Source of the DNA: Hygrocybe punicea
Taxonomy: Eukaryota > Basidiomycota > Agaricomycetes > Agaricales > Hygrophoraceae
Direction: 5' to 3'
Length of the DNA: 64,000 nucleotides
NCBI GenBank assembly: GCA_963556145.1
Contig: OY744463.1
Coordinates: 2,790,001 to 2,854,000, forward strand
Shown: piece by piece, positions 20,608-55,747 of the stretch
Layout: every line of letters begins with the position of its first letter
How positions within the stretch are numbered: position 1 is the first letter of the stretch
Made by a program: the position numbers and the translations under genes
The notes under the pieces: generated by a model
The model's input: only the letters and a program-made list of their open reading frames with translations
Databases searched by the model: none
Told to the model about the DNA's origin: nothing

Positions 20608-20618
20608 AAGTTTAGTCT
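20608..20618 (-). promoter_or_regulatory. D predicted self-primer binding site
   Basis: Minus-strand AGACTAAACTT, 2 nt after the 5' LTR, is the exact complement of AAGTTTAGTCT at 20768-20758, the predicted first 11 nt of the transcript. This arrangement matches the self-priming of Tf1-type elements. Confidence 0.65.
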
Positions 20619-20620
20619 TA

Positions 20621-28877: not shown

Positions 28878-30875
28878 TTAAAATACGGATTCAAACATGT
28901 GATGATCGGCATATTTGTTGACATAGAATGCTCAAAAACTGTCAAGAGAGCGAGAAAAATGAAAACCAGGTGGTAAAAAACTATTGCCATATACTCCAAT
29001 GAGATATGCAGCACAGACCACACAGTCAAGGTGAATGACAGCAAGGGGTCCATCAGCATTTGGTGTGGGTTTCACCATCCACATGCCAGTGTCAACATCA
29101 GGTCCATCGCCAATGTGTGAGAACCAATGGATCAGGGCACAGGGATAGGTAGTACCACAGAAATTGAAAGAAAAAAAACACAATACACGTGCGATGTCGA
29201 GACCACGCATGCCTTCAAGGTCCTGATTTGAGTTCACGAGCACACAGTCATATCGAGATGGGCCCTTTTGCCACAAGGGGGTTGCACAAATACGTTCACG
29301 ATGCATACCACCAATCCCACTGGGATCACTAGGTGCATAATACGTGGCAACAGCTGATAGGTAAACAGCAACCTTCCCATCAAAGGATGGGCAGGCAGTG
29401 AGTGGAACTTCAGAAGACGTTAGAGGGCCATTGAGGTGAAGCTGATCATAGAGGAACCGGTGCATAAGAATGGGAAAATGGGGGACATTGAGTTCGGTGG
29501 CTAGCTGTTCCACCCAATATCGTTTATAGACAGTCCTGGCGAGATCAACCTGTGCAAGGTCGGTTGGCCCAGCAACAGCTCCATCCTCATCATTATCCTC
29601 ATCATCTTGGTCAACAGAGTTGTGAGTGGTGTCATCGGGATTGTGACCTTGATCCTGCCCTGTGTCACATTAAATAATTTGCCAGCTGAATTGGTGGATG
29701 CTGCTTACTGGCTAGAGAGATGGCAGTGGAAAGACAGGTACCATTGAGCATTCCTCGACTAGTAAAATCAACACGACTTGCTGTGATTTTGTCGAGCCAC
29801 TGATTTGTCAGCAGCATTTGCCCGAGGGCTTCATAATGACTTGACCGCTGCCACGGTTCCTTGACAGCCTTGATGTGTTTTGATTCTGTAATTGAGGAAC
29901 ACAAGCCATTTGGCGCACCAAACATCCAAATAAGGTGGAGGTAATGAATAAGAGTGTTGTCGTGGAAGGGAAAATTCAGTGGGATGAACTCCGGTTGTCT
30001 GGAAGATGACGCGATGCTTATGGAATCATTCAACTGCATCCTCCAGCTGTTGAAGGCTTGTTTGGGTGTGAATATTGCGCTGAGCAAGGTAACAGAAATC
30101 CAAAAAGGCATTAAATGTGCGGACCATGTCCCAAGGTACATGCCCTTCAATTGCTGGAAGGTACACCTGAAGTTTTGGCAAATTAGACTGATAGAAATCA
30201 AACTCGCGGCATACAAACCTTTATCAAGGCATTAGAGTCATCCCCAGTCCATTGTTTGAAACCTCGACCCTGTGGGAATCGCCGTAGACCAGAAAAGGGA
30301 GCAACGGCCGCAATACTGATTCAGTATAATGAGTGAGATGTAAAAATGGTAAAAGAATGGCAACAGACTGATGATCAATGTCATCTAATATTTCATTAGC
30401 TCGTGCTGGGCCATGGGCCTGAATAAGGTAATCTTCTACCCATGTGACCAAATGATCCTTAAATGTGCCTTTGACGACTTGGTGGAGAAGGTCTGGAGCG
30501 ATGAGCTCGTGTATGTCAGCTTGCGGAAAATCATTTGTAAATGGCTGGGCATCAATAGAATGTAAGCAATGACTCATAGCGAACAATATCTATGCTACTC
30601 ACAGTTACATCGCCAACAACACCAAACTCGTCCCATAAAACACCTAATTCCAATGTTTCGACCAGTAAATCTGTATGCTCATGGGACCAGCATCCCCCAT
30701 CAGGCTCGCTGTCAAGGTCTTGGCGTGGTGCTCTGCACCTAAGAATCCAAGGTTTAGAATAAAATAAATCAAAGCCAAGGGGTGACTTACCGTGGACACC
30801 AGCCTTGAATGATGCATGAAAGGAGAGCCTGTTCAGGATAATCAGCAATATATGGTCCAAGGCCATATATCACAC
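28878..30875 (-). pseudogene. Plavaka transposase, C-terminal half
   Basis: Continues the gene started at 55747. The first codons after the insertion junction read VIYGLGPYIADYPEQALLSC, then an intron (GTAAGT donor near 30790). Further blocks are CWSHEHTDLLVETL, IHELIAPDLLHQVVKGTFKDHLVTWVEDYL, FGAPNGLCSSITESKHIK, AVKEPWQRSSHYEALGQMLL, and the C-terminus VYGNSFLPPGFHFSRSLDSF, TGA, AFYVNKYADHH. Exons are separated by short introns. The final TAA is at 28878-28880, with the next gene (P) starting 15 bp on. The motifs are those I know from basidiomycete Plavaka transposases. In-frame TGAs make it inactive. Confidence 0.85.
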
Positions 30876-31763
30876 TGTAGATGCGGGTTCTAGGTGGCTT
30901 CGGAACAATAAAGAAGATGATCCTAACCTGTGGGTGTCAGCGTAGAAGTGACTGGATAAATCAGTGTCAGGAATAGTAGTAAAAGGAAGGGAATGTTAGT
31001 AAAAGTAAAGCCGCTGCGTAAAACTGGACTAATAACGACGAATCCAGCGATGAACGGAGTGAAAGCGGACAAATAATGAAGAACCCGACTATGCCGACGA
31101 TGTCGGGTACGGGGGGTCGGGTCAGGTCAGGTCAGAAACGATGAACAAATAACGAGAACAATGATAAAGACGATGAAATGAACTATAATAATCTAAGGGT
31201 CTACAAGGACGAGCATTTGAAGTGATCAAAATGATTCTGACTATGAGGGAAACGGGGACTAAGGGTATGTTTTTTGTACGGTCATCGGGGACCGTTTTTA
31301 TAGTACAGGAAATAGTAATCTACTTTTGGACATGTCTATTTCGGCCGATGGTAAGCTACAAAGAAAGGTTGGAATGGGGATGTGGAAAGGGGGGTTGCAA
31401 AGTGACGAAGACAGGAATATGGAGGGGAAAACAAATATCCATGAAAAAGATGGAAAATGTCCTACATATCTCCGAAAGGACGACGGGATGCATAAATATG
31501 GTAAGTCCGAAGTCGGGGATTGAGTCCAATGAGATCCATCTTCTAGAATTGGAACTCCGAGGCGTTTGAGGCTGCCGGATTTGGTCTGAAAGCGGCTGTG
31601 ACAAAGCGGCATGTGTCGGGTTACATCAGTCATGTCGGGTCACATCACATCACATCACGTCGGGTTACGTTGGGTTCGAATGCGAGTTGAATAGAGGCAT
31701 TGGGTTCGTCTGGATTTGTGATATATCGAGGATACGGACTCAGAGGGACGTCGACCCTCTACA
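30876..31763 (-). repeat. A 3' LTR (A2)
   Basis: TGTAGATGCGGG to GACCCTCTACA on the plus strand, 888 bp. It shares subfamily-specific variants with 53365-54274 (for example near 31365-31400). Confidence 0.9.
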
Positions 31764-32228
31764 TCTCCAGGGTACTTTAAATAAAGACCATCCCTGGTCG
31801 ATACTAAGTGGACTCGGGACTCGGATGCGTGAGATGAGGCCGACGTGGTGGTCGTGGAATCGGGTTCGATGGGACAAGGCAGGTTGTGGACAATGTGAAG
31901 GGGGAGAGCGGGTGGTGACTAGTGGAACATGGTGGAGAGTCGGAGGGTGGAGAACAAAGGCGGGTGATGCCGGTGTCCGGAAATACATAGAAAAGAAACT
32001 ATAGTGACAATATAACCAAGCGGAAATGAAGGAAGCAGCGGAAAGCTACAAGGGTGGGACAAATATGCAGCGGAAATGCAAAATAGATAAAAGGGAATAA
32101 ATGTCGGTGATCGGAAAGGAAGGTTACAGGGTAAGATCAAAATGTGAAATGGGATCAAGGGTGGGTGACAGAAATAACAAAGGCATGAGTGGAAACACGT
32201 AGGGCATAAGCGGAAACGACATAAAGTA
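31764..32228 (-). other. A interior next to 3' LTR
   Basis: Begins TCTCC..GGG, then AAAGACCATCCCTGGTCGA, a block also found inside the 3' LTRs of B1 (near 2095) and C (near 37865). So it is a conserved element-end motif, possibly part of plus-strand priming. No gene is seen. Confidence 0.5.
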
Positions 32229-33405
32229 GTGATGCCGAAGTTCGGTTCAGAACCGGTCCGAACCCAGTTTGAACCACAAACCGAACCGAAAAACCCGGTT
32301 CGGTTCAGCCAAATGCTGAACCGAAACCGATGGTTCGGTTTGCAGTTTTGTGGTTTTGAGCGGTTCTGAACCGCGTTTGAACCCGGTTCGAACCGCGAAC
32401 CGATAGATACGGTTCTTCCCGTCATTTTGATCCACTGATCATCCAAAACGGTCAAGTATTGAGTGAGTTATGATTAAAACAACTTTTACTCACAATATAT
32501 ATATATATTGGATTTTAAAAATGGCAATAACATTGTAAATAAAATAGATAAAATTACCAAATTATTTGAGTACATTGCCCACACTAAATGATAATTGGTC
32601 CTCTGCTAAGATTAGTTAATTTAACCAATATCTGGTCACTCATTAAACTGACTTCAATTTGTAACCAATTATGCAGAAATTCCAAGTTGGTCCAATAGGT
32701 GAGTGGATATTGATTATATTAATTAATGTTAACAGAGAACCCATTACCTTTTGATGAAATAATTTGGTAATCTTACCTATTTTACTTATAATGCTATTTT
32801 CATTTTTTAAAATCACAATCTATATATTGGGAGGACATCCGTAACGATAAAAATATTCTGGGCAATAAACAGGGTGCCAGTCGGGGTTGGAACCGCTTTG
32901 CTTATATCAGTTTGGGATCGTTGATGGAACCAATAGATGACATGCCAGTGATCGGCATAGCCCACTTCAGGAGGTCGGACCTTGAAAATAGTTTTTGTAG
33001 TCTATTCAGGGGGTCGACCCCCTCCAATAGATATCACATCTCTGTATGATATCTGTACCCCGTTTAGGGTGGGGAGTTCAAATGTTTTTCTGGGGTCTTT
33101 GCAGTGTTGGAATCTCATCCCAACATGGGGAAACTATATCCGAATAAAAGATATGTTATGGATGTCCTCCCATTGTGAATAAAAGTTATTTTAATCATAA
33201 CTCACTCAATACTTGACCGTTTTGGATGATCAGGGGATCAAAATGAAGCTGACAGGTAGGAGAAGCTTTAAATCAAATTGGTTCGGCGTTTGAACCGGGT
33301 TTGAACGCGAACCGAACGCTAAAAAACGGTTCGAAGCGGTTTCGGTTTCGGTTCAGGTTTTGCAAAAAACCGAAAAAACCGAACCGAACCGAACTTCGGC
33401 ATCAC
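32229..33405. mobile_element. X: TA-flanked MITE holding further nested inverted repeats
   Basis: Termini GTGATGCCGAAGTTCGGTT / CGAACTTCGGCATCAC flanked by TA at 32227-32228 and 33406-33407. The arms are GAACCG-rich. Inside is a second inverted repeat (arms about 32424-32489 and 33183-33244), and within that two more: an AT-rich pair (about 32512-32575 with 32750-32815) and 32828-33172 with TIR TGGGAGGACATCC. No coding capacity. The AT-rich core contrasts with its GC-rich surroundings. Confidence 0.75.
32828..33172. mobile_element. Innermost MITE (345 bp)
   Basis: 18-bp inverted termini TGGGAGGACATCCGTAAC / GTTATGGATGTCCTCCCA. Possible ATT duplication. Non-coding. Confidence 0.65.
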
Positions 33406-34413
33406 TAACATAAAGCGAAAGCGGATGACAAAAACGGTTGTAGTCGGGTCAGGTTAGGGTCAGCCGCTTCGGTGGCTGTGTCAACGGGTGGCGGAAATGG
33501 TGGTGGAAATGGCAGCAGAAAGCATAAACTGGTGACGTGGGCATAGGGATATGACAACGGAGATAAACATGATATGATGACGGCGGAGGTTCGATATGAT
33601 ATGACGACAACAGAGGTTCGATAGATGGAGGTTCGATGGACGATGGCGGAAGTTCGATAGGCGATGGTGGAGGTTTGATATGTCAATACTAATATGGGGG
33701 CGATAATCAACGGATGTGATATCAGCCTCATACTAGGCGGTTCAGCACCGGCTTGGACCCGTGGGGAAGCATTCTCCCCCATGGAGCTGAGAAATAAAGG
33801 TCAGGTGGGTTTCGAAACCGAGACAGGGAACATTGTGTCTGGGGTGAAACGGTGGCAAGACAGGTGGGTCGCGGAGAGCGGAGATTGATGTTGGTGGGTG
33901 AGCGGATGAGTCGGGTGCATGGGGAACGAGTGTAGTGGTGTGTCAGGTTCGTAAGTGGGTGTGTCGGGTATGTCAGGTGGATTATGTGGGTGGGGTGTGT
34001 GTCGGGAACAGGTGTATTTCTTTTTATCTTTCTTTTATCTCTGACGTTTTTCTTTCTTTCTATTTATTTAATGTATCTATGTATATATTTCTTATGCCGA
34101 TGGACGGTGAGGGGTTTTTCGTAGGGTCGGGTTCGGTGGGTATGGGGGTGCGAAGGTGGTGGGTACGGGATGTGAAACCAGAACCGGAAGCAGAGGCTCA
34201 AATTGAGCACCGCTGCTCGAATGGAGCCGGAACCGGGAGCGGATGCCGTGGAATCATTGGGAACGCGTCCGGGTTCGTAGTCGAGTGTTTGCTTTGTCGA
34301 AACGCAGTGGTGGTGATATGTCGGGTGACCGGTAAGTTGGGAATGGGTGTCGGGTTGGAGGGCGGGTATCGGGTCTGACGACGGGTCCATAAAGGGGACA
34401 ATGGTGGGGCTTG
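33406..34413. other. Element A interior without clear gene
   Basis: Includes a short-unit repeat (33560-33690), a 64-codon plus-strand open stretch at 33694-33888 without recognisable features, and a T-rich tract at 34015-34090. No confident gene. Confidence 0.4.
33560..33690. repeat. Degenerate 20-27 bp tandem repeat
   Basis: Five or so units of GAGGTTCGATA...GATGACGGCG type. On the minus strand they read as repeated YRTS. Confidence 0.6.
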
Positions 34414-36447
34414 TTAGATCACAGACGGGGACGGCACGGACACTGGAGGGCGTTCGGTTGTGCTTCGGGTGCTGTCGACTCGTTTTGGGGGGTTCTGGGT
34501 GGTGGATCCGACAACGCGGGTGTCTTGACTAGCGGAGGGATTCGTTCTTGGGCAACGGAGGCGAACATGGGACTGCGCGGGGTCGACCGTGGTTATGTAC
34601 GGCCGTTTGAAGTTGTGAAAGGTCAGGGAACGGGTAACAATTGGTCGAGGTTGGGGTGTAGAGTGAGGTTTGAGATGTGGGTCGACGGCATGGACTGGGG
34701 TGGAACGTGGGGCTGTGTGACATGGATCGTGGTTGCGCGGGGTCATTCGAGGTGGCGAGAGGTCGGGCAAGCAGGAAACAGGTGGTCGAGGGAAGCGGGT
34801 AACGGGATAGGGCAACATTGGGCGACGGAGACAGATGACGTGAGCGGACTAGGGCCGAATGTGGGGTTGCGAGACGTAGATCATGGTTGCGTGGGGTCCA
34901 TTGAGGTTGCGGGAGGCCGGGGGGCGAGAGACAGGTGATCGAGGTTGGGGGTCGACGTGGGGTGACGTGGCGGCTCGTGTGGGACGAAGAGGGTCAAGGG
35001 CGGACTTGTTTGGGATGGATGAGGGCCATGCTGAGGTGCGGGGCGTGAGCGTGGGTGTGGGGACTAGCATACGTGGTGGTCGTTGGCCTCGGATGGGAAA
35101 CGCGGTGGTAGGCTGTTTGGTGACATGGCGCAGCGTTGATGACTTGAGGGCAGCAAGGACGGCTTGTACGGGTTCGCGAGGGATGATGTGGGGTGCCGGG
35201 AGCTGGTACAAGGCGGCGGGTGGTTCAACGGATGTGTGAGGGGTCGGGGAGGTTGTATAGGCGGGTGCATGGGGCGGGTTGACGTTGCACAGCGTTGGGG
35301 ACTCGATAACGGTGGGGACGGCTTGTACGGACTTGCGAGGGACGCCGTGAGGTGCTGGGAGGCTGTATGAAGTGGCGGGTGGTTCAACGAATACATGAGC
35401 GGCCGGTGATGTCGTATAAGTGGGTGCATGGGTCAGGATGACGTGGCACGGCGTTACTGGCTCGATGATGGCGAGGACAGCTCATGAGGGCTCGCCACTG
35501 GCATTGTGGGGCCATAGGAAACGGTGCGAGGCGACGAGGAGGTCCAACGAGGACGTGAGTGGCCGGGGATGTCGAGTACGCGGCGTATAAAGTGGTTTGG
35601 CATGGCATGGCGTTGGGGACTTGATAATGGCAGGGAGGGCTTGTACTTGTTTGTGAACGATGGTGTGATACTCTGGGAGGCCATGGATGGCTGGCGAGAC
35701 GAGATGGAAACAGGGGCGAATGCGCTGGGGTTTGCTGGGCATTGATGTGGCTTTCCGGTGATGGCACCAGCGTAGACAGTAGGGCCATGTCACGGATAGC
35801 TTCTGGGGATGACTGTGAGGCCGTAGACACGAACGCGGGGCGAAACGGGGGCGAGACGGAGGGGCTTGCTGGGCTGCCTCGAAAACGGTGTTGGGCACGC
35901 GCGGATGTGTTTTTCCATGGACGGCTTCGGTTCAATGCTTGGGGACGGGACCGGGCTTGCCTCTGGGGATGACAGCGAGTCCGTGGACATGAACGGTGGG
36001 CCAACGGGGGTCAAACGGGAGTGGATACGGTTGGACGTGTCGAAAACCGCGTTTGAACGCGTGTTTCTGCATGGTTACCATGGAAACGGCGACGATGGGC
36101 ATACCTGGGGTGCACAGGCTAAACCCGTTACACTGTGGGCGTGTTCCTTCTGCTTCATGGCTCCATTCGTCTGTGTTTCGTGAGTGATGTGGTTGTTGTT
36201 GGTCGCGGTCGCTGGGCCGTTTTGGGGCTTTCCGGGCACGGATTTTCAACTGGAATCGGTGGGGCATGGAATTCCGAGTGCGTTGGGGTTGTAAAAACGA
36301 GTGTGGATCATGAATGTGATGGGGATCGAGACGTCGAGACGACAAAGGGTGTATTGGGTCGTGGCTGTGCAAGTTTCCTAAAGCGGTAAACGGCCGCTGG
36401 GTCGGCCGTACAAGAGCGGGTTCGAAGTTGTACGTGAAACTGAACAA
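34414..36447 (-). pseudogene. Pro/Ser/Thr repeat coding region of element A
   Basis: A chain of minus-strand frames (36447-35932, 36004-35384, 35898-35482, 35429-35064, 35211-34849, 34818-34414) encodes Pro/Ser/His/Thr-rich sequence. Repeats such as QVQALPAIIKSPTPCHAKPL followed by YSTSPATHVLVGPP match the 48-residue repeats at 9.8-11.1 kb. The frame changes between segments and no continuous protein remains. Its location in the sense orientation of A suggests the family carries this gene instead of gag-pol. Confidence 0.5.
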
Positions 36448-37025
36448 TTGTAGTCGTCAAAGAAGAGCAAATAAGGGGTTTCACGCATCCCAACTCGTGC
36501 CCCAACTCGGCCCCAACTTCGACCCCGATTTGAGGTCCTTTTTAGGCACCTTTTGTCAAGTTGCGGCAGAAGTCGGGGCACGAAGTTGGGGTTTGAAGTC
36601 GTGCTCGGGAGCACGATTTCAAACCCCAACTTCGTATGTCCCAACTTTGACCCCAACTTGACCGGAATTGCCTAAACGAGACTCCGCAACTCATCAAGTT
36701 GGGGCCAAATTGGGGCCAAGTTGAGGCACGATGTGACGGCGAGTTCGGTTGTAGACCCGAATGGGAATCTACGAAAAGGGTGATCAGCTAATTATTATAA
36801 GAAGTGATCAGAGGAGTTTAGTGTCTATGTAGTCTAGTCAATCCAACCCAAATCCAGGGTTTTGGATCAGAGGGGAAGTGAAGGGAGTGGAGTACGAAGA
36901 CTGATGAGACGATACGATGTAGAGGCTCCAGGCCGTCTGGACCCGAATCCTCTTCATATCCCACTTCGTCACCGTCCATTCCCATTCACGTATCGTCGAC
37001 TCCGCCCGATTCCGGTCCTTTCCGT

Positions 37026-37849
37026 TGTAAAGGCGAGGTCGGGGTGGCTGCGGAATAATAATCCTAGGCCTGTGGGGTCAGCGTAGAAGTGACTAGGAAT
37101 AGTCTAACAAGCTTCAGTAAGATAATAGGATATAAAAGGTAAGAAGCCGCCGAGTAAACTACTGAAATCTATCGAGACCGATCGAAGCTGACGAAGCCGA
37201 TGATGTCGGGTACGGCGGGTCGGGTGTCGGGTGACGAGGGACGTAGAGATAAAGGCGGTAGAACGACGGGGAGGGCGTCAAGGAATCCGACGAGCAATGT
37301 GTGCGATGGATTTTACTGAGAGACTAATTCTCAGAGAGAGGAAATGGGGGAACTGGTTTCTTATTTTGAGACGGCGCTTGGGCACCGTTTTTATACTACA
37401 AAGTTCTGTACCGAGATTCGGACGAGAGTCCTTGGCCGATGAGAGGAAACAAAGGAGAATAAAAATGGGGAAGTAGGAAGAGCGTTGCGAGGCGACGATG
37501 ACAGGGAAAATGGGTGGAAGATATAAAAAACCGCAAAAGATGCAAAATACTTTACTATATCCCCATAAGGGAGACGCTAGGCGTGAATAAGGCAAGTCCG
37601 ATGTCGGGATCCCAGTCCGATGAGATCTATCTTTGATATTTGAAGTTCCGCAAGTTTAGGAGATAGACCAACCAGGTACGTGAGCGGCCGTGCTAGTCGG
37701 TATGCATCGGGTTGCGTCGGGTTGCGTCGGGTTGCGTCGGGTTGCGTCGGGTTGCGTCAGGTTCAAACATAGATTGCTAGAGACATCGGGTTCGAGCGGA
37801 TTCGCTAGATATCGATGTTACGGCCTCAGAGGGTCGAGGACCCTCTACA
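37026..37849 (-). repeat. C 3' LTR
   Basis: TGTAAAGGCGAG to ACCCTCTACA. Contains a 10-bp tandem repeat GGGTTGCGTC, about five units (37705-37760). Confidence 0.93.
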
Positions 37850-38022
37850 TCTCCTTGGGTCTTCTAATAGAGACCATCCGTGGTCGAGAATATGGGGTCT
37901 CCGAATGCGGGTCGCGAATGTGGCCAATCACGTGAGCGGCCAAACAACGGCAAAGTAAAAAAAAGATAAAAAAAATTCTCGTTGTTGATCCGACCTTTCC
38001 TCTACACCATCACACGTTCACA

Positions 38023-39419
38023 ATGTCCCAAGTCTACGACAACTTCCTCGCCTTCGTCGAAAGCATCGAACCCGATGTCCGGGCGGACTACGAAGAGGCC
38101 GTCAACGCGGTCACCGTGTTTCATAGCGACGACCTTGTAACAATGGTGGACGGCAACGAGGGGATGGCCCAACAATGGTTAAGCGGCCGCAAGAAAGCGC
38201 TGGTGAGTTTCCTTATTGACTACGCGTGTCCTAAGATAGCTCATGTTGTCCTGCCAGCGTGCTTATAATGGAATCGTCGCGGAACTCCGAGCTGGTGGTA
38301 CGAGGCCAGTAACGCCACCGTTATGGGCCGACCGCCAATCGTACGCCAACGATGTCGAAGAGTGGCTGAAAGAAGCGGCGGACCGAGAGAGGCAGGAAAA
38401 GGAAGAAGCCAGACGGCGGGCGGATGAAGAAGCGGCTACGCGGGAAGAGGAGGTCAGACGGATGGCAGAGGCAAATGCACGATCGGAGGCGGAGAAAAGG
38501 TGAAAGGCGGCAGAGGAAAGGCGAGGGCGGCTTAGAATAGAACAACACGAGCAGCACTGGAATCAAGAAGCGGACCGGGTTGAAAGGGATGGAGCCGCGT
38601 ATCGGTGGCGGCTCAGCGAAGAACGGCGAGCTGAAGCAAACGCATCGGTCGCGGGTGAACCAAGGACTGAGTCGATTCCGGAGGGCGAAGCCGCAGTTGA
38701 GCCAGAGGAAGGCCCCGTCGACCCGGCACCAGAGACACCGGCCGATGTAGAAGACGTAGATACGCCGGGCGTAGAGACCGGAGACTTGGCTGGTACGATG
38801 GTGAGTTCTTGTGTCGGTTCATTTGTTCTTTAGTCACTGATCCTGGTAACAGTTCACCGGGCCGTTTCCTCTACAACCCTGCACCAACTGCGTCAAGGCG
38901 CAAGAGGCGTGTCGAGGCGTCACGGGCTACGTGTGCGAACGATGCCGGAGGCTGAAGAAAAGATGTACTAACGCTACACACCGGACGGGCGGGGGTCGGC
39001 GCAAGGTGGATACCGGAAAGGGCAAAGAGGTCGCGGTCGGCATGAGGAAGCCGTTGTCGTTCACGACAAAGCCCATCCGCAGTAGGCCTGTCCAGGCCTC
39101 AACGAGCAAACCGCGGGTCGAGGACGTGGAGTCGGTCGAGGACGATGACGAAGACGAGGAGGAGTCGGAGGAAGAGCGGCCGACGAAAAGGCTTAGGACA
39201 GCCTCGGCAGCGAACCCGTTCATTTTGACGATGGAGAATTACGAGCAAGTGTCGGCGCGGCTAGCGGTCCTTACGGAGGAGCTGGGAGCCCTGGGCACCA
39301 ACGTCAACCGTCACCTCGTCCACTTCGGTCAAGAGTTCCAGCGGCTTCACGTCGATCTCGAACGGTCGACTTCAAGGTTGGTGATGTTGAAGCGGGATTA
39401 CGAGACCGGCCGCCTCTAA
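38023..39419 (+). pseudogene. Antisense C6 zinc-cluster/coiled-coil gene of element C
   Basis: Exons 38023-38202, 38258-38800 and 38853-39419 (429 codons plus stop), introns 55 and 52 bp with GTGAGT donors. Exon 1 starts MSQVYDNFLAFVE and matches exon 1 of the B copies in helical pattern. Exon 2 is a Glu/Arg/Ala coiled coil with a single TGA at 38501-38503 (expected Arg) and an acidic Pro-rich tail. Exon 3 begins with six Cys spaced CX2CX6CX7CX2CX6C (CTNC...CRGVTGYVCERC), then an acidic linker (EDDDEDEEES) and a C-terminal helix (LKRDYETGRL). Exon number, boundaries and phases equal those of the B copies although the proteins are diverged. It converges on the integrase gene (207-bp gap). Confidence 0.8.
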
Positions 39420-39626
39420 GATAGACAAAAATAACGAGCCCGTTGTGTATATATATATATAAAATATCGTGTACATAAAAGACGTGTCAGCTTGTTCACC
39501 CAGCTAAGGAAAGCCGATCGGCTCCCGAAGACATAGGACTATTCGCATCATTCGTCATATCGTTAGAAAACTAAGAGGAACTAAATAAAATGGGGGTATA
39601 ACGTGGACAGAATATAAATGAAATGC

Positions 39627-42600: not shown

Positions 42601-43320
42601 AAGTAGTCCGTATTGAACTGGCCTTTCTCGGATTCGTTCCAGGCGAAGGCGGCTTCTTGCGTTTTGATGATATGGTGGCCGAGTTTTTCTTCCTCAGGCC
42701 AAAGGAATCCATCCGGGTTCATCGGCATCGCATCGTGTCGTTCCTGAGTATAGCGGGTGCTGGGTGTAAAGTCGGGCGGATGAGTCAGGAGCGTGGGTAA
42801 ATCGGCTAGCGGGTCGCCGGTGATCTCACGTATGATACGGTATTCGTCGGGGAGAGTGGTAGAAATTGGGCGGATACGATCGGCTACCTTCTTATACTTT
42901 TTCTTGGTAACGACTCCTTTTAGGTCCCTGGTAGGGGGGGTGGTATACGAGATATAAGTAGTGTGTTCAGTAGAGGCCTTGTTACAAATATTCGAAGAAG
43001 AAATATGTGACGCAGGAGTGGAGACGGAACAAGACGAAGGAAGGGTATCGGTAGTACGTAGCTGATTTTGTACATCGGTCAACAATGAAATGTACTGGGC
43101 GGCAGTCTGAGGCTGAGACGAAGAGAAATCTAAATCGATAGAAAAACATAAGTCCTCTTCTAGGGGAAATGGCAAAAGGGAAGCATAGTTCGTGGTATAG
43201 GTGTGGTCGCTTTCGAGTGGCGGCTTCTCATCTCCCGGTGCGTCCTTCCCGAGAGGTATCTCCGGGTCCTCGACTTCTAAAAATCCGGTTTTCCGGTGTC
43301 GGACCGCTCTCGTCAGTTCT
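39627..43320 (-). pseudogene. pol: C Pol: reverse transcriptase, RNase H, integrase (one TGA)
   Basis: The pol frame is -1 relative to gag and overlaps its end. Spacer, then RT from ~42560 (RSRWFCVLKKDGKSLRIIHD, YASFDLFVSFDQR, VPYMDDIPVKG). RNase H has AIDSSVLGVGFVLMQ and VEVDAKYIKGML. TGA at 41139-41141 interrupts the same frame. After it come the integrase HHCC finger (HDSLGHKG...CHQCQ), core AYVDTMFMP / IVTDNGKPF / NGPVERRH, and a C-terminal region with YFGPMVVVRK. No chromodomain; the tail is acidic (DDTNSNDLDD). Apart from the single TGA, probably from CGA, the polyprotein is complete. This is the only near-complete pol of the NCGN-duplicating families here and the likely source of enzymes for A, B and E. 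Confidence 0.9.
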
Positions 43321-45535: not shown

Positions 45536-45792
45536 TGTGGGTGGTAGGAGCTGAGATGTCAATGAAGCGGTTGTCGGGTGTACGATGAGCGGGTCGGGTA
45601 ACGTGGACGATGACGGCGTGGACGAAGACGAAGATGGGGACAATGACAATGACGGAGTTTTCGATGTCGAGAGCGAAGACGGAGACGATGACGATGACGA
45701 AGTTTTCGATGTCGAGAGCGAAGACGTGGACGGGGGTTCTAACGAGGTCGAAGTCGGGGACGTAGGCGATGCGGGTGTCGAACTGAGATCGG

Positions 45793-46713
45793 TGTAGAGG
45801 GTCGACGTCCCTCTGAGTCCGTATCATCGATATATCACGAATCCGGACCAACCCGATGCTGCCATTCGACTTGCATTCGAACCCGACGTAACCCGACGTG
45901 ACGTGATGTGACGTGACCCGACGTGACCGATATAACCCGACACATGCCGCTTTGTGACGGCCGCTTTTGGGCTAAATCCGGCAGCCTCAAACACCTCGGA
46001 GTTCCAATTCCAGGAGATGGATCTCTTCGGACTCAATCCCCGACTTCGGATTTACCTTATTTATGCATCCCCTCGTCCTTTCGGAGATATGTAGGACTTT
46101 TCCAATCTTTTTCATGGATATTCGTTTTCCCCTCCACTTTCCTGTCTTCGTTGCTTTGCAACCCCCCTTTCCACTTCCCCATTCCAGTGTTTCTTTGTAG
46201 TTTCTATCGGCCGAAGTAGACATGTCCGAAAGTAGCTACACACTCATGTACTATAAAAACGGTCCCCGACGACCGTACAAAATAACATACCATTAGTCCC
46301 CGTTTCCCTCATAGTCAGATTTGTTTTAATCCCTTCAAATGCTCGTCCATGTAGTTCCTTAGCTTTTTTATAGTTCACTTCGTCGACTTTATCATTGTTC
46401 CCGTATATTTGTTCATCGTTTCCGACCCGACCCAACCTGACCCGCCGTACCCGACATCATCGGCATCGTCGGGTTCATTCGTTTTCAGTCCGTTCACCAT
46501 CGGGTTCATCGTTATTAGTCCGTTTTCACTCCGTTCATCGCTGGATTTGTCGTTACTAGTCGAGTTTATGCGGCGGCTTTACTTTTATTTCACTTTCACT
46601 TCACTTATTATCCCCGACACTGAATTATCCAGTCACTTCTACGCTGACACCCTCTGGTTAGGATCTCTTATTTCTTTATATAGTTCCGAAGCCACCAAGA
46701 ACCCGCATCTACA
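45793..46713 (+). mobile_element. A3: solo LTR of family A in the leader of C (921 bp)
   Basis: TGTAGAGGGTCG to CCCGCATCTACA in sense (plus) orientation, flanked by TCGG at 45789-45792 and 46714-46717. Closer to A1 than to the A2/A4 pair. It is the innermost and so youngest layer of the nest. Confidence 0.92.
46252..46276 (+). promoter_or_regulatory. LTR A TATA box and hairpin
   Basis: TATAAAA at 46252-46258, then an ACGGTC...GACCGT stem (46259-46264 with 46271-46276). The pair is kept in A1, A2 and A4, so a 5' transcript hairpin is likely. Confidence 0.6.
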
Positions 46714-46717
46714 TCGG

Positions 46718-46986
46718 ATGAGTCGGGTGTAATGGTGATTATTGGTATATCGACCGATTCGAGACTGTCGGATGAAAGATATAGGGGGGTGTTTGACCCT
46801 GAGACGAGCGGGAGATTGTTATGTCGAGCGAGGTGGTCGGGTACTAGCTGGAAGAAGTCGTCGTCGATTGTCGGGTCGAAGGCGGCTAAAGAGAGTTCTT
46901 GTTGAAGAGTTCTTCGAGGAAGATCTCGAAGACGACGGTCAGAGGGAGGGATACGGGAAGAGGAAGCTATGGTGGTGCTAGACTAT
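46718..46986 (-). other. C leader, outer part
   Basis: Leader between primer site and A3. No gene is seen; it is contiguous with 45536-45788 once A3 is removed. Confidence 0.6.
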
Positions 46987-47004
46987 TCCTCGCGGTGGGC
47001 TCCA
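46987..47004 (-). other. C primer-binding site
   Basis: Minus-strand TGGAGCCCACCGCGAGGA, 2 nt inside the 5' LTR, identical to those of A and B1. Confidence 0.75.
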
Positions 47005-47006
47005 GA

Positions 47007-47830
47007 TGTAAAGGCGAGGTCGGGGTGGCTGCGGAATAATAATCCTAGGCCTGTGGGGTCAGCGTAGAAGTGACTAGGAATAGTCTAACAAGCTTCAGTA
47101 AGATAATAGGATATAAAAGGTAAGAAGCCACCGAGTAAACTACTGAAATCTATTGAGACCGATCGAAGCTGACGAAGCCGATGATGTCGGGTACGGCGGG
47201 TCGGGTGTCGGGTGACGAGGGATGTAGAGATAAAGGCGGTAGAACGACGGGGAGGGCGTCAAGGAATCCGACGAGCAATGTGTGCGATGGATTTTACTGA
47301 GAGACTAATTCTCAGAGAGAGGAAATGGGGGAACTGGTTTCTTATTTTGAGACGGCGCTTGGGCACCGTTTTTATACTACAAAGTTCTGTACCGAGATTC
47401 GGACGAGAGTCCTTGGCCGATGAGAGGAAACAAAGGAGAATAAAAATGGGGAAGTAGGAAGAGCATTGCGAGGCGACGATGACAGGGAAAATGGGTGGAA
47501 GATATAAAAAACCGCAAAAGATGCAAAATACTTTACTATATCCCCATAAGGGAGACGCTAGGCGTGAATAAGGCAAGTCCGATGTCGGGATCCCAGTCCG
47601 ATGAGATCTATCTTTGATATTTGAAGTTCCGCAAGTTTAGGAGATAGACCAACCAGGTACGTGAGCGGCCGTGCTAGTCGGTATGCATCGGGTTGCGTCG
47701 GGTTGCATCGGGTTGCATCGGGTTGCATCGGGTTGCGTCGGGTTCGAACGTAGATTGCTAGAGACGTCGGGTTCGAGCGGATTCGCTAGATATCGATGTT
47801 ACGGCCTCAGAGGGTCGAGGACCCTCTACA
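47007..47830 (-). repeat. C 5' LTR
   Basis: 824 bp. TATAAAA on the minus strand at 47376-47370. Differs from the 3' LTR at 11 positions. Confidence 0.93.
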
Positions 47831-47834
47831 CCGT

Positions 47835-48345
47835 CGATTCCACTCCGGATTCCGCCTCCGGAATTGTTCCTACTCAAGATGCAATGTCTCTAACGACCTG
47901 GAATCAGTACGTATATAGTTACATATGATATATCTTCGTTTCCCGTTACTTAGTACATAGCATCATCCCTCCTATACTCCGCTCCACTCCTCTACCATCA
48001 GTTACAGCCTTCGCTTGTAGTACCTAGTTACTACAGCACAGGATCTCTCCCAGTAGTATAAAAGATGTACCCTTATACTACAACCATATATATAGATTAC
48101 ATCCCACCATATTATATCCCACCATATCATATTGCATCCCTTCAGTTCTATTTCTTAGTCCTCGCTTCGTATCGTCTCATCAGTCTTCGTACTCCACTCT
48201 CTTCACTTCCCCTCTGATCCAGAACCCTGGATTCGGGTTGGATTGACTAGACACTACAAAGACACTAAACTCCTCTGATCACTTCTTAGCTGATCACCAC
48301 TTTCGTAGATTCCCATTCGGGTCTACAACCGAACTCGCCGTCACA
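47835..48345 (+). repeat. B2 5' LTR, distal part
   Basis: Continues 36918-37025 after element C. TATAAAA at 48057-48063 lies in a GTAGTATAA/TTATACTAC inverted repeat (48053-48061 and 48073-48081). Ends GCCGTCACA. Confidence 0.88.
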
Positions 48346-48347
48346 AC

Positions 48348-48365
48348 TGGAGCCCACCATGAGGA
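48348..48365 (+). other. B2 primer-binding site
   Basis: TGGAGCCCACCATGAGGA. Two positions differ from the B1/A/C site (GCG to ATG), both readable as decay around a CpG. Confidence 0.65.
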
Positions 48366-48461
48366 GTTTATTTCTTTTGTCTTTTCATACCCTCCCCACT
48401 GTCGGGTTTGACTTTCATGACGTTTTTCTTTTATTTCCGACTCTAATCGCTCACCCCGCTT

Positions 48462-50207
48462 ATGACTTCGACCCCTTCCTCGTACCTCCCCGACCCGACC
48501 CGCTTCCCGATTTGGATATTCCCCGACATGACGCACGGATTCATGCCTCTCCGAGGTGATCGTTCAGCCCCGACATTTCACGGTGACGAACACAACCTTC
48601 CCCACATCTTTGACGAAATTGACATGCTCGGCTCCGACTGTGGACTCACGGACACTATGAAGATTCGCTACACGCTCCGGTACCTCGATAACGACGACTA
48701 CGAACTTCGGTCTACCCTATGCGCCACTTCAGCAAAGGACTTCATTGCTTTCCGACGTGCTGTTTTCGTCTTCTATCCCAGTGCCACAGACAGTATTCGG
48801 TATATGATCACAGATCTCGATCAATTGGTTAAACGACAATCGGGTTATGGTATAGAGAACAAGACGGACTTAGGACAATATTTCCGAGATTTCATACGCA
48901 TATCTGGAGTACTATATGACAATGGCCGTTTATCGGACAAGCAGCGGAATGAGTATTTTGCCAACGGATTTGACTCAGATCTTTGTCAACGTGTTGAAGA
49001 ACGACTCCATTACCTTCTTCCCAGTCATTACCACGACGATCTGTACCCGGTTGATATTTTCCACGATGCTGCGTTGTTTCTCCTTTCCGGTTACCGTTCC
49101 GTTCCGGAATCCGTTGTCACTGCAGCCCCCGTTGCCATTTCTAGTCCCGATTCCGGTCCCGCTCCCATACCTGTCGCAGTCATTTTGCCTCCGGAACAAA
49201 TCCCGTCCTCGATCCTGTCCTCGATCCCACCCACTGTTGTTCATTCCATCCCCCACGTTCATTCCAGTCCTTCATATACTCCATCCCCGTCATCGTGTTC
49301 CCCGTCCCTGTCTATTCCGGTGCCTGTCGAGACCGTCATTTGTTTACAGGTATTGTCGTCCAATCCCGTGTCGTCCCTGTCCGATCCCATTCCCGATTTA
49401 TCGATGCCGGTCACCGATTTATCCAATTCGTTTCCTATTTCGTCCCCGTCGTCTCCGGTTTCGTCCCCTCCGGTTTCTGTCCATGAACTCGTACCGGACC
49501 CGCTCCCATTGTCCTCGGATTCTCCAGAAATAGACATTCCGTCCCTGATATTGCCGCCATATTGTCCTCCGTCACCATCTATCGAGATTCCATCGACTTT
49601 GGTTGAGTATTCCGTACCTGTTCCCATTCCGGACTCCATTCCACCCCTTGTATTTGATTTCGATTCCGGTTCCGATTCCATTATGTCGACCCCTTCACTC
49701 CTGGTTCCCCTCGTCGTTTCCGCTCCGGTATCGTTGTTGGTTCTGTCTTCGCCCGCTTGGGGCATCCCGTCATCTTTAGACCCGTCACGCGGCGCACCCG
49801 TTATATGGGATCATGTTGGTGTCGGCACTCCGGTTCTTGATTTTATTTTATTTCTCGTTTCCGTTTTCATTCTACTTTGTCATCGCATTTTGGACCTCCG
49901 CCCCCTCGACACCTCGCTCAAATATTTGCAAGAAGTTCTCCGCCTCCGACCTTCTTTCAGAAACTCTTGTGGGGATATAGACCCATTTCCGTCTCCTATT
50001 TTTGCGTTTTCATCTTCCGTTCCGCTTTCCATTCCCGCTCCCATTTCTCACTTGTTTATATTTTCATTTCTGTTTCTAGTTCTCTTTGTTTCCCGTTTTT
50101 TCCGGTCCCTTTTCGTTTCCATTGTATTCCAGTCTCGTCCTCCTCCTCGACCCCCAGATTCCGGTTATCTTATCTCATCATTCCGTTTCCCTCTTTTCCG
50201 TTTATAG
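48462..50207 (+). CDS. gag: B2 Gag-like protein
   Basis: 581 aa, ATG at 48462 (an internal MTHGFMPLRG at 48528 matches the B1 start). Capsid-type domain to ~residue 215 (GYGIENKTDLGQYFRDFIR, FHDAALFLLSG). Then a long Pro/Ser/Val/Asp-rich region (~230-450), then two hydrophobic segments near the C-terminus (FILFLVSVFILLCHR and LFIFSFLFLVLFVSRFF). No zinc knuckle and no protease. The frame is intact and stops 72 bp short of the convergent antisense gene. With no pol in the element, this Gag would have to work with enzymes from another element, most simply C. Confidence 0.8.
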   Translation: MTSTPSSYLPDPTRFPIWIFPDMTHGFMPLRGDRSAPTFHGDEHNLPHIFDEIDMLGSDCGLTDTMKIRYTLRYLDNDDYELRSTLCATSAKDFIAFRRAVFVFYPSATDSIRYMITDLDQLVKRQSGYGIENKTDLGQYFRDFIRISGVLYDNGRLSDKQRNEYFANGFDSDLCQRVEERLHYLLPSHYHDDLYPVDIFHDAALFLLSGYRSVPESVVTAAPVAISSPDSGPAPIPVAVILPPEQIPSSILSSIPPTVVHSIPHVHSSPSYTPSPSSCSPSLSIPVPVETVICLQVLSSNPVSSLSDPIPDLSMPVTDLSNSFPISSPSSPVSSPPVSVHELVPDPLPLSSDSPEIDIPSLILPPYCPPSPSIEIPSTLVEYSVPVPIPDSIPPLVFDFDSGSDSIMSTPSLLVPLVVSAPVSLLVLSSPAWGIPSSLDPSRGAPVIWDHVGVGTPVLDFILFLVSVFILLCHRILDLRPLDTSLKYLQEVLRLRPSFRNSCGDIDPFPSPIFAFSSSVPLSIPAPISHLFIFSFLFLVLFVSRFFRSLFVSIVFQSRPPPRPPDSGYLISSFRFPLFRL

Positions 50208-50279
50208 TTTTATTATGTACTCTATTTTTCTTTATGTACATTGTCCCGCATTCCGTTTTCCCTTTCCGTCCATTCCCTT

Positions 50280-51745
50280 TTATTCCCTTCTCCCTTCGTC
50301 GAGTTTGGTGTCGATTAGGTCGAGTTGACCCAGGATATGGGCCTGGTTCGTGCGTAGTCGATTTAGCTCCTTTGTCCAACGGGTTAGCTTGGTGTGGACC
50401 TCCGCGATGTATTCAGAGAGGCCGTCCGCAATCGTCAATATCTCCCTCTGCGTTTCCGTCGCCATCTTGCGTACTGCCCGGACGTGGTCGTTGATTCCGG
50501 CCCCGATCCGTGGGTGCTTGAACGGATTTCTTCGTCTCCCTTCGTCCCGCTCTGATTCCATATCCAGTTCGATGTCAGTCAACGTCTGCTTACTCGTCGA
50601 CGCCTCTCCAGTCCACAACCTAGGCTTCCTCACGGGCTTTGGTATTTTCTTCGCGACGATTTTCCTCTTTGGACTACCCGCCTTCGCCTTCCCTTTCCTG
50701 TCCGCTTTTCCGGATCCGGTGGCCGGTCCCTTCGTCGATAACCTGCAGCGTCGTTTAAGCCTTTTGCAACGATCGCACACGTACCCTTCGATTCCGTGAC
50801 AAACCGCGTTGGCGGTCACGCACGCATCGCATTGCCGGATCCAGAACGACTGCATATACTACGGATTAGTTAGGCACAACAGATATACGAGTCCACGAGA
50901 TATCACTTACCCCCGGAATCTTTCCCTTCGGTTCCGCGTCCTCGTTCCTGCTCGCATTCGAGAAATCGTTGCCGCTGTTGTAGTCCCCGTGAACGGTTTT
51001 GTTGTCCCGGGTGACCCTCTTATCCCGGTTGAGCTTTTTGTTTTTGATCGCGTTCAGTACTTGGAGTCTTTCGTATTTTCGAAGTTGCTGATTGGACCAG
51101 GTGTCCTCCTTGTCCTTGCTTCCGTGATCGCTGGTTTGTGCGGTCTCCTCCCTTTCCCTTTCCGCGGCTGCATCATCCCTTTTTGCTGCTTCTGCCGCCT
51201 TCGCCCTTTCCGCCTCCTCAATCCGCTTCTCCGCTTCCGCCCTCCAATTCATCTCCTCTTCATATTGACGCGATTCCTCCGCCCATTTCCGCTCGATCCT
51301 TTCCGCCTCCTTGACCCGTTGTTTCCTCGCTTCCTCCTCCTTTTCCTCCTGCAACCGTACAGCTTCCCGACACCTCGCCTCTTTCCATTCCCGTTCGTAG
51401 TCTTCCCAGCTCCGCAACCACTCCTCGACCTCCACCACCATCTCTCCACCCATCGAGAAATCCCTCGGTTCTGTCACGTTGATTCCGTTGTCCCGGATTT
51501 CCGTCAAGATTCCTCTGTAGTTCCGCTGTCGGGTATCGTTAGTCCGTGCCGTTTACGAGAACGGGATCTCTTACCATGGCCCGTCATCGTCTCACCACCC
51601 ATTGCCGTGCTTCGTTCTCGAATCTGTCACGTACGATATCGATTCCGGCCACGTCGACTTCTAGTAACTCAGCTATGGCGCTCTTGAAGTCTTGCCGCGT
51701 TTCCGCATTGAGAGTATTGAGGAAATTGTCGTATTCTGTCGACAT
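50280..51745 (-). CDS. Antisense C6 zinc-cluster/coiled-coil gene of B2, intact
   Basis: Exons 51745-51575, 51525-50911 and 50858-50280, introns 49 and 52 bp with GTAAG donors and CTAACTAAT branch site; predicted 454 aa with no internal stop. Residues 1-57: MSTEYDNFL helical domain. 58-262: Glu/Arg/Lys coiled coil (VEVEEWLRSWEDYEREWKEA, EAEKRIEEAERAKAAEAA). ~272-300: C6 cluster CX2CX6CX7CX2CX6C with KRLKRR before the last Cys. ~300-350: Lys/Pro/Arg linker (KRKIVAKKIPKPVRKPR), a likely nuclear signal. 390-454: helical C-terminus. It converges on gag. An open 454-codon spliced frame while neighbouring elements are riddled with TGAs suggests recent function. Possible roles are a transcription or restriction factor for the element, or a packaging/targeting aid. 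Confidence 0.82.
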
Positions 51746-52080
51746 CTGGTGTTGGTGTTGGTGTTTGTTGGGTTTGTTGGGCTTGTTGAGGTTGTTGTCG
51801 AGATTGTTGAAGTCGCGTTGAAAAGTTTTCTTGTTTGTATTTGTTGACCCGTCACGTGACCTTTATTTCCCTGTCCAGCCGTCTCGCCCATACTATTTTG
51901 GTAGCTCCGGATCGCCCCTCCTGACACTTCGATACCCACTGGCTTCGACTCCGCTCATGTTGTACTCCCGTTTCCATCTGTTTTCGACATCGCATCCGCT
52001 CATTTATTCCCACAACCCTGGTATCTTCATTATTTCGTATGGATCGACCAGGGATGGTCTCTATCTGAGTCCTGACCGGA

Positions 52081-52699
52081 TGTAGAGGCTCCGGGCCATC
52101 TGGACCCGAATCCTCTTCATATCCCACTTCGTCCCCGTCCATTCCCATTCACGTATCGTCGACTCTGCCTGATTCCGGTCCTTTCTGTCGATTCCGCTCC
52201 GGATTCCGCCTCCGGAATCGTTCCTACTCAAGATGCAATGTCTCTAACGACCTGGAATCAGTACGTATATAGTTACATATGATATATCTTCGTTTCCTGT
52301 TACTTAGTACATAGCATCATTCCTCCTATACTCCGCTCCACTCCTCTACCATCAGTTACAGCCTTCGCTTGTAGTACCTAGTTACTACAGCACAGGATCT
52401 CTCCCAGTAGTATAAAAGATGTACCCTTATACTACAACCATATATATAGATTACATCCCACCATATTATATCCCACCATATCATATTGCATCCCTTCAGT
52501 TCTATTTCTTAGTCCTCGCTTCGTATCGTCTCATCAGTCTTCGTACTCCACTCTCTTCACTTCCCCTCTGATCCAGAACCCTGGATTCGGGTTGGATTGA
52601 CTAGACACTACAAAGACACTAAACTCCTCTGATCACTTCTTAGCTGATCACCACTTTTGTAGATTCCCATTCGGGTCTACAACCAAACTCGCCGTCACA
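52081..52699 (+). repeat. B2 3' LTR (619 bp)
   Basis: TGTAGAGGCTCC to GCCGTCACA, preceded by the GACCAGGGATGGTC end block. Full-length reference for family B. Confidence 0.92.
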
Positions 52700-53344
52700 A
52701 CAAAGCGAGGACTAAAAGTGTAGAACTGAAGGGGGAGTGATAACCTGTATTTTTCTATATGGTTGTAGTATAAAGGTACATCTTTTATACTACTGGGAGT
52801 GATCCTGTGCTGTAGTAACCACGTACTACAAGCGAAGGCTGTAACTGATGGGAGAGGAGTGGAGCGGAGTATAGGAGGAATGGTGCTATGTACTAAGTAA
52901 CGGGAAACGAAGATATATCATATGTAACTATATACGTACTGATTCCAGGTCGTTAGAGACATTGCATCTTGAGTAGGAATGATTCCGGAGGTGGAATCCG
53001 GACCGGAATCAACAGAAAGGACCAGAATCGGGCGGAATCGACGATACCTGAATGGGAATGGATGGGGACGAAGTGGGATATGAAGTGGATTCGGGTCCAG
53101 ACAGCCCGGAGCCTCTACAACGAGTTGAGGCTGAGTTGGGGATGCGTGAAACCCCCTAATATTATGAGAATCAAACCCAAATGATAGTGCGATAGTTGGC
53201 GATTGGATGTCGGAGTGTTGGGTGTCGAATGTAAAGAAGTCAGGTAACGGGTGTCGGATGTGTAGAGTGCTGCGGCAAGGCTTGTTTCGAGATGATGAAA
53301 GGAAATGAAGGGCTATGGAATGAATGAATGATGACACTGAATTA

Positions 53345-53362
53345 TCCTCGCGGTGGGCTCCA
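53345..53362 (-). other. A primer-binding site
   Basis: Minus-strand TGGAGCCCACCGCGAGGA, 2 nt inside the 5' LTR of A. Confidence 0.75.
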
Positions 53363-53364
53363 GA

Positions 53365-54274
53365 TGTAGATGCGGGTTCTTGGTGGCTTCGGAACTATAT
53401 AAAGATAAAATAAAGATCCTAACCTAGGGGTGTCAGCGTAGAAGTGACGGTGGATAAGTCAGTGTCAGAAATAATAGTAAAGGAAGTGGAAATGTAAGTA
53501 AAATATCAAGCCACCGTGTAAAACTAAACAAATAACGATGAATCCGGCGATGAACAGAGTGAAAACGGATGAATAACAAAGAACCCGACGATGCCGACGA
53601 TGTCGGGTACAGCGGGTCGGGTTGGGTTGGGTCGGAAACGATGAACAAATAATGGAAACAATCAATAAAGACGATAAAGTGAACTACAAAAAGCTAAGGA
53701 TCTACGTGGACGAGCATTTGAAGGGATTAAAGAAGATTCTGACTATATGAAAACGGGGACTAAGGGTATGTTTTTTGTACGGTCGTCGGGGACCGTTTTT
53801 ATAGTACAGGAAACAGTAATCTACTTTCAGACATGTCTATTTCAGCCGATGGTAAGCTACAAAGAAAGGTTGGAATGGGGATGTGGAAAGGGGGGTTGCA
53901 AAGTGACGAAGACAGGAATATGGAGGGGAAAACAAATATCCATGAAAAAGATGGAAAATGTCCTACATATCTCCGAAAGGACGACGGGATGCATAAATAT
54001 GGTAAGTCCGAAGTCGGGGATTGAGTCCAATGAGATCCATCTTCTAGAATTGGAACTCTGAGGTGTTTGAGGCTGCCGGATTTGGTCTGAAAGCGGCTGT
54101 GACAAAGCGGCATGTGTCGGGTTACATCAGTCATGTTGGGTCACGTCACATCACATCACGTCGGGTTGCGTCGGGTTACATTGGGTTCAAATGCGAGTTG
54201 AATAGAGGCATCGGGTTCGTCCGGATTCGTGATATATCGAGGATACAGACTCAGAGGGACGTTGACCCTCTACA
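53365..54274 (-). repeat. A 5' LTR (A4)
   Basis: TGTAGATGCGGG to GACCCTCTACA on plus, 910 bp. Partner of 30876-31763. Confidence 0.9.
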
Positions 54275-55747
54275 ACGCGTCGAAAGTGGCCATCCAGGCA
54301 CCAAGTAACTTCAGGAGTCGTCATCCCAGCCTTAAGAGACTGAAGAATTTGGGAAAGGGAGGAATGGAAGAGCTGACAGCGGAATTTGCGGAAATTCACA
54401 TCATTCAGGTACTTCTTATCGGCTATGTCTTTTTCAGCACAATTTCACCAAAATGTACCAAATATAACTTACACTTCGGGATGGCAAGAAACCCTATTAA
54501 AGCAAGAGCATTGTGGTGCACACAGTGCACATTATTGTGAACATTTCCAATAGATGCATAAAGTGGGTAATATTCATTGTTTCCAGTGCCAACAGAAACT
54601 GTGGTCATGTCACTGCCAAGGATAATGGGCACAAACATGGCACCATGAGTGATGGGATCCTCGGCAATAATATCCTTGAAGACAACATAATCAGATATTA
54701 AAAGTGCAGTGAGATAACAGACTTACTGCTTGTTTCCAGGCCCAGTCGCCTGACATCAAATTTTTGTATTGCTGTTTGCCATTGACATTGAATTCACGAA
54801 ATGGAGCATAATCAATCTTGCCATCAAAATCAGCATTACCAAGCATGTTGCGTATAACCGTACGAGGGTCCTGGTACCAGGCATCATATCCACTGTTCAT
54901 CCATACAGGAACTTCACCGTCTGGTAGTTCACCATTGTTACTCATGGTAAAACTTCACCAGGGCACATCACCAAGTGGTGTCAAGTCAATGGTATCATAT
55001 AAATCCCGGTGGTCTCAAAAGGGTGGTTGGTCATCATGCTTGAACAATGTCGATGCCCAGAGATCAAGTAGCTGGTCAATATTGCCAGTGGACATCTGCT
55101 CACGGCAGTAGAGAAACTTGCCAGTTTCAAAACCAACACGGTCAGAGTAGGGGGTCCAGTCGTTTGGATCGGCATGGGGCCGGTGAGGTGGTGGAGGGGT
55201 ATCTGGCGGTGTGTCATTGCCAAGTTCATCACAAGGCTGCCCTGGATTAATTTCTTAGCCTAACAATCCAGCATTCATGCAGTCGCTCACCATATAACAA
55301 AGGATGGAAATCTTTCATAGCATTCGATAGGTTTGGGGGAGGGTGATTCCCCTCCAAGTCATTGGATGACGGAACGTGATTGTTGTCACCATCACCAATA
55401 TCGGCACTCAGAGTTGCAGGGGGGGTACCTCCATTATTATAAACATCAAAATCTTGATCAGGGTTGTCGCCTTCCATTCTATGCTGGGAGTTGACTTTGA
55501 CATTGACATGTCCCTCTGAGTCTGAACTAGAGACTGAAGATAATGGTGGAACCTGCGGTGGGCAACTCAGAGTAGGTCCAGTGGCTGGCTGGGATTGTTG
55601 CTGAGAGTGTCAGGAACAAACGTGATTGGTGAGTCCTGCCTGATTTCGAAACCACCGCCGACAGCCGACAAATATACATGGCAGGTGGTTGGGATTGTGG
55701 GATCTCGAAGGCCTTGTCATAGTAGTCGTATCACGAGGTCGGGCCAT
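54275..55747 (-). pseudogene. Plavaka transposase, N-terminal half
   Basis: ATG 55745-55747. A C2H2/CXXC-like motif (CIFVGCRRWFRNQAGLTNH), then a TGA (55610-55612), an acidic linker, and after a frame change PPHRPHADPNDWTPYSDRVG, MSTGNIDQLLDLWASTL, two more TGAs (PPF-stop-DH, PW-stop-SF), then YDAWYQDPRTVIRNML, DYAPFREF, GDWAWKQA. An intron (GTAAGT...TTCAAG) follows, then FVPIILGSDMTTVSVGTGNN, YYPLYASIGNVHNN, a second intron, and FRKFRCQLFHSSLSQILQSL, MTTPEV, DGHFRRV at the A junction. It continues at 30875. Plavaka elements are a basidiomycete-rich cut-and-paste group. The element's terminal repeats were not located. Confidence 0.85.

Follow-up and report, generated by a model that had tools for sequence, protein, structure and literature searches.

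A CpG-centered target site rule for LTR retrotransposons of Hygrocybe punicea, found in two distant integrase lineages

We analyzed a 64,000-nucleotide stretch of the Hygrocybe punicea genome (assembly GCA_963556145.1, contig OY744463.1, positions 2,790,001 to 2,854,000; here called the window) and its long terminal repeat (LTR) retrotransposons, namely, families A and B and elements C, D, and E. Families A and B, elements C and E, and F1543, a further family of the same genome, insert with 4-bp target duplications whose center is mostly CG, with a minority of CA or TG and no TA among 368 listed flanks. A preliminary description of the window had proposed CpG-centered integration, and the genome-wide test of duplication positions 2 and 3 upheld it for element C and families A, B, and E. 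Exact-pattern searches of the genome (92.2 Mb in 42 contigs), which print the 4-bp outer flanks, matched 673 sites, and the 368 flanks listed over the five LTR families have CG in 281 cases, TG in 44, CA in 40, and AG, CC, and CT in one case each. The center is thus pyrimidine-purine in 365 of 368, compared with 25% of sampled dinucleotides. Relative to a background of 20 sampled 700-bp regions placed at round coordinates (CG, 3.83%; CA, 8.3%; TG, 7.8%; TA, 4.9%), CG is enriched approximately 20-fold and CA and TG approximately 1.3- to 1.5-fold. For the 300 listed flanks of A, B, and C together, the probability of at least 232 CG centers at the background rate is approximately 10^-261.

The pattern holds in each family. 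The tallies of A, B, and C each comprise 100 matches, those that come first in the order of contigs, and show CG, CA/TG, and other centers in 72, 26, and 2 flanks for A (169 matched), 77, 23, and 0 for B (289 matched), and 83, 16, and 1 for C (147 matched). F1543 (19, 3, and 0 of 22 matches) and E (30, 16, and 0 of 46 matches) were listed in full. Another pattern search (217 matched, 100 listed) was left out of the tallies. Misplaced LTR ends, or flanks common to segmentally duplicated copies, are scarcely credible as the source of the pattern. Inward-facing LTR starts did need to be kept out by constraining the first pattern base (any base except C for A, B, and C, and any except T for F1543 and E), and AAGA, one of the three "other" flanks, resembles element-internal sequence, but matching flanks were found in 53 of 55 tabulated elements and in 12 of 12 F1543 copies, the outer bases and the sequence beyond them differ between copies, and element D, processed alike, shows no CG excess.

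These 55 elements (25 solo, 24 paired, and 6 from the window, leaving aside the split family A LTR B4 and the LTR at 21470) have both flanks tabulated, and they overlap with the 368 listed flanks, so the two sets are not independent. Queries with family A and B LTRs had yielded 60 copies with flanks, 12 unpaired LTRs among which were dropped. For element C, we drew 40 edge regions from 20 LTR copies or pairs, and partner ends were recovered in 7 of the 14 partner regions tried and then in 2 of 5; guessed family A partner ends (L123 to L128) included the outer edge in 0 of 6. A duplication was kept if its flanks differed in no more than one of the four bases, which removed L011 (CCGC/GCCT) and L056 (CAGT/TCGT); L057 was dropped because it had no right edge. 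Among the 53 duplications kept, 38 are CG on both sides, 10 pair CG with CA or TG, 3 are CA/CA, and 2 are TG/TG, and none pairs CA with TG.

The register of the preference is sharp. Across the 53 sites, the two central positions carry 1.9 and 1.6 bits, while all other printed positions carry 0.14 or less; the center is CG in 48 sites (taking the copy with CG) and pyrimidine-purine in all 53. Preferred insertion into CpG-rich chromatin, for example, at islands or promoters, found no support; it is contradicted by this single-base register and by the background level of CpG both within 30 bp of the center and over 700 bp, and was rejected as having next to no probability. CpG makes up 4.7% of the flanks of the 53 sites, and its observed/expected ratio over the 700 bp beside 86 outer flanks (one of which, on one side of L057, probably lies inside an element) has a median of 0.76 versus 0.73 in the 20 sampled regions (P = 0.68). 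Of the 86 flanks, 21 show matches, within 100 bp of the site, to window sequence or to the small number of element loci used for comparison. Stretches nearly free of CpG (observed/expected, 0.04 to 0.11) were seen in the flanks of L053 and L031 and at L179, and both L053 flanks carry open stretches of 499 codons despite the near-absence of CpG.

The preliminary description had read CA as decay of one side of an original CG, one copy having changed to CA in three of the eight window duplications that it listed. This explanation seems to hold for the one-sided cases, since all 10 mismatches in the 53 kept duplications are transitions (C to T or G to A) at the central CG. It does not extend to every CA or TG: the same CA or TG stands on both sides in 5 of the 53, and two more such doubles (L198, ATGT/ATGT; L200, GTGG/GTGG) were found among copies fetched because their 5′ flank was TG. 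CA and TG are probably also original targets at a low rate, because same-way doubles occur and opposite-way doubles (CA with TG) do not, a pattern not expected from uniform decay alone. A simple model puts decay at approximately 9% per copy and the original CA/TG share at 7%, with a likelihood ratio of 14.9 in favor of an original fraction (assuming uniform decay and counting in 12 F1543 pairs); decay as the sole source of CA and TG is disfavored accordingly. The doubles L031 and L053 sit in the nearly CpG-free DNA described above, which fits decay or an original target, and the double L048/L052 does not lie in CpG-poor DNA (observed/expected, 1.04 and 0.90).

Like Ty3/gypsy elements, element C is bounded by LTRs that start with TG and end with CA and by a short target duplication, and Pfam identified protease, RNase H, and integrase domains on its minus strand. 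RNase H (minus-strand frame 41139 to 43400) lies upstream of the integrase frame, which is the Ty3/gypsy pol order; the Pfam reverse transcriptase model had no match in these two frames. The integrase frame has 85 scored genome matches at 95 to 100% identity, and we propose it as the source of the CG preference. Pfam matched no domain in the three long frames of family A. The LTR end TGTAGAGG and the adjoining GGGCTCCAG are common to families A and B and element C, from which we infer that A and B would be mobilized by a C-type integrase, with B judged from LTR features alone. The LTR start of element E, TGTAGTAGT, resembles that of F1543; given this likeness, E may be a short non-autonomous partner of the F1543 lineage, mobilized by it.

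The CG rule spans two distant integrase lineages, one of them represented by the stand-in L003. Families F1543 and F1510 were chosen from integrase-core matches in the genome, and L003 stands for their integrases (65% and 68% identical over the fetched part of theirs). The 3′ flanks are NCGN in 12 of 12 F1543 copies and in 6 of 6 F1510 copies (3′ side alone), with L157 (other strand) and L168 (offset by one base) read by eye, and all 12 F1543 copies, paired by eye, have the same four bases at the 5′ and 3′ sides. The copia family F1485 yielded no flank, its 3′ end lying beyond the 2,500 bases fetched. We regard the lineages as distant because the C and L003 integrases are only 21.5% identical (E value, 1.1e-8); C and D are 21.0% identical (E value, 1.6e-11). 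Species-named relatives of the integrases, among the matches listed (two listings of 120), belong to Leucocoprinus, Hypsizygus, Pleurotus, Sparassis, Heterobasidion, Mycena, Trametes, Psilocybe, and Lentinula, all basidiomycetes.

Two chromodomain families of the same genome do not follow the rule. No chromodomain, the mark of chromoviruses, was matched in the C integrase or in L003; D and F1249 possess one. The preliminary description had set D apart by its 5-bp duplication, and D does fall outside the CG pattern: duplications of 5 bp are identical in all 10 pairs fetched (among 13 non-window pairs) and in the window copy, and CG occupies positions 2 and 3 in 1 of these 11 (GCGAT). For F1249, judged from one flank per copy, it does so in 1 of 7 readable 3′ flanks (TCGAT). 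Two F1249-type integrase matches (C8:2214245 and C8:2219413) lie in the same orientation 5,168 bp apart and are perhaps tandem copies sharing an LTR.

How an integrase might impose such a rule is suggested by retroviruses. Prototype foamy virus (PFV) integrase produces 4-bp duplications with a preferred pyrimidine-purine center, where the target shows approximately 55 degrees of roll (PMC4422553), and the central bend in retroviral targets favors pyrimidine-purine steps, more so with shorter staggers (PMC4422553). The elements described here share the 4-bp stagger and the pyrimidine-purine center, and in PDB both CG-type integrases match PFV integrase best (E values, 1.9e-16 for C and 3.6e-13 for L003). 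We consider it quite likely that the integrase picks a bent pyrimidine-purine step and favors C:G in each half-site. The integrase would hold the target sharply bent at the center of the 4-bp stagger, where the flexibility of a pyrimidine-purine step would be required, and the two halves of the complex would each favor C:G over T:A in their own half-sites; CG would suit both halves, CA or TG one, and TA neither. The integrase is implicated because the two-base register lies at the center of the stagger, and the half-site preference is suggested by CG standing far above CA and TG with TA absent. A two-half-site model predicts TA at approximately 0.04%, in line with 0 of 368 listed flanks.

Flexibility by itself, with any easily bent pyrimidine-purine step sufficing, would explain the near-universal pyrimidine-purine center and has the PFV precedent, but it is disfavored, and to our judgment very improbable, because CG is enriched so far beyond CA and TG, and TA, although also flexible, is missing. 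Another possibility, following the suggestion in the preliminary description that the CpG is perhaps methylated, is that the integrase or a tethered factor recognizes methylated CpG, with TG and CA serving as half-mimics since 5-methylcytosine resembles thymine. The 10 transitions at the central CG are the usual mark of host CpG methylation, and the same-sided sites L031 and L053 in nearly CpG-free DNA are also in keeping with it. However, decay after insertion is silent on the state before insertion, TA, with its methyl group on both strands, is not seen among the 368 flanks, the insertions are concentrated in neither CpG-poor nor CpG-rich DNA, and a tether would account for a region and not for an exact two-base register. 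We therefore regard recognition of methylated CpG as improbable. Its strongest form, in which integrases would read 5-methyl-CpG directly in the bent target center, elements would home on host-marked DNA, and the rule would have arisen at least twice in fungal Ty3/gypsy elements, is a long shot.

Several points weigh against a bent step read through C:G in each half-site. The D integrase, whose best match is Ty3 (E value, 8.3e-35), also matches PFV, with a stronger E value (1.6e-19) than C, so the PFV resemblance does not explain the difference between CG and non-CG elements; this weakens one line of support and lowers our confidence in the mechanism. The PFV base contacts named in the part of the source available (Ala188 and Arg329) lie outside the central dinucleotide (PMC4422553), and a central base contact would thus go beyond those described. 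K243 of C, which aligns with Ala188, is not a conserved column in a 33-sequence alignment, and so the contact residue is not identified by it. In addition, the half-site model takes the decay rate as uniform, exact patterns favor young copies, and the F1249 control reads the 3′ side alone, with the end of one of its eight copies (L171) not at the expected place.

The preliminary description knew of no such preference stated for Ty3/gypsy elements, but one is in print: among plant LTR elements, target duplications vary greatly, the exception being the Phygy elements of Physcomitrella, which prefer NCGN (Neumann et al. 2019, PMC6317226). The same preference is seen here in 281 of 368 listed flanks. 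Phygy elements of Physcomitrella patens are likewise non-chromovirus Ty3/gypsy elements without a chromodomain, with 4 bp as the commonest duplication length (Jedlicka et al. 2019, PMC6911290), but they belong to a moss, their preference is given without frequencies in the part of the source available, and we liken them by stated preference and not by integrase comparison. Plant 4-bp duplications as a whole have GC-rich centers like those reported here, although that motif is pooled over families that include Phygy (PMC6911290). In Drosophila, the gypsy group likewise duplicates 4 bp of target, at palindromic motifs that differ by clade (Linheiro and Bergman 2012, PMC3276498), but these are AT-rich (ATAT, TATA) and extend past the duplication, whereas we see nothing clear outside the central two bases. 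PFV differs in that its pyrimidine-purine preference sits in a weakly conserved palindrome, while CG is strongly dominant here. Among fungi, two gypsy elements of Cryptococcus have 5- and 6-bp duplications of variable sequence (PMC12810828), and we found no statement of an NCGN preference for fungal elements in searches of open-licence papers.

The integration rule is real and strong, and a rule of this kind had already been reported in moss. LTR-element integrases have mostly been described as weakly sequence-selective. Here two distant integrase lineages show a strong two-base requirement that chromodomain elements in this genome lack, and the contrast provides natural variation for studying how an integrase reads target DNA. 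Such elements would also depend on a highly mutable dinucleotide, and their target supply would be expected to fall as the genome decays.

Within the window, where CG makes up 5.7% of dinucleotides, all eight duplications listed in the preliminary description were verified base by base, and each has the form NCGN on at least one side; ACGA was likewise verified as the intact outer flank, and single readable one, of the family A element ending at 6428 (B1). The coordinates are collected in Table 1.

Table 1. Elements of the window, their coordinates, and their target duplications. Labels in parentheses are those of the preliminary description.
Feature	Position	Strand	Duplication or flank	Remarks
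Single LTR of family A element (B1)	5818..6428		ACGA (outer flank)	Partner LTR cut off at 1605
Solo LTR, family B (A1)	7969..8856		CCGC/CCGC	Also genome query
Family A LTR (B4)	13682..21448		TCAT/TCGT	Split by element D
Element D	14219..21178	minus	TAGGG/TAGGG (5 bp)	Chromodomain element, negative control
Family A LTR	21470..22077		CCGT vs ACGG	Flanks differ, both NCGN; absent from the preliminary list
Element E	22698..24408		CCGT/CCGT	1.7 kb, LTRs of ~150 bp
Family B element (A)	30876..54274		ACAC/ACGC	LTRs ~30876-31763 and 53365-54274
Family A LTR (B3)	36732..53119		ACGA/ACGA	Split by nested insertions
Family A element (B2)	36918..52699		ACGA/ACAA	Inside the B3 LTR
Element C	37026..47830	minus	CCGT/CCGT	LTRs 37026-37849 and 47007-47830
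Integrase frame of C	39627..41138	minus		H2C2 zinc-binding above Pfam cut-off; rve core 27.6 bits vs cut-off 32.6
Solo LTR, family B (A3)	45793..46713		TCGG/TCGG	Within element C

The region from 30876 to 54274 is a nest of insertions, in which the solo family B LTR lies within element C, C within a family A element, this element within another family A LTR, and the whole within the 23-kb family B element. Other repeats were also noted in the window. A 0.8-kb stretch (32422 to 33246) bounded by 75-bp inverted repeats that are 96% alike is possibly a small DNA transposon. A unit of approximately 175 bp stands in two tandem copies, 95% alike, at 56407 to 56776, and two 187-bp inverted repeats, 92% alike, occupy 57840 to 58026 and 62671 to 62857.

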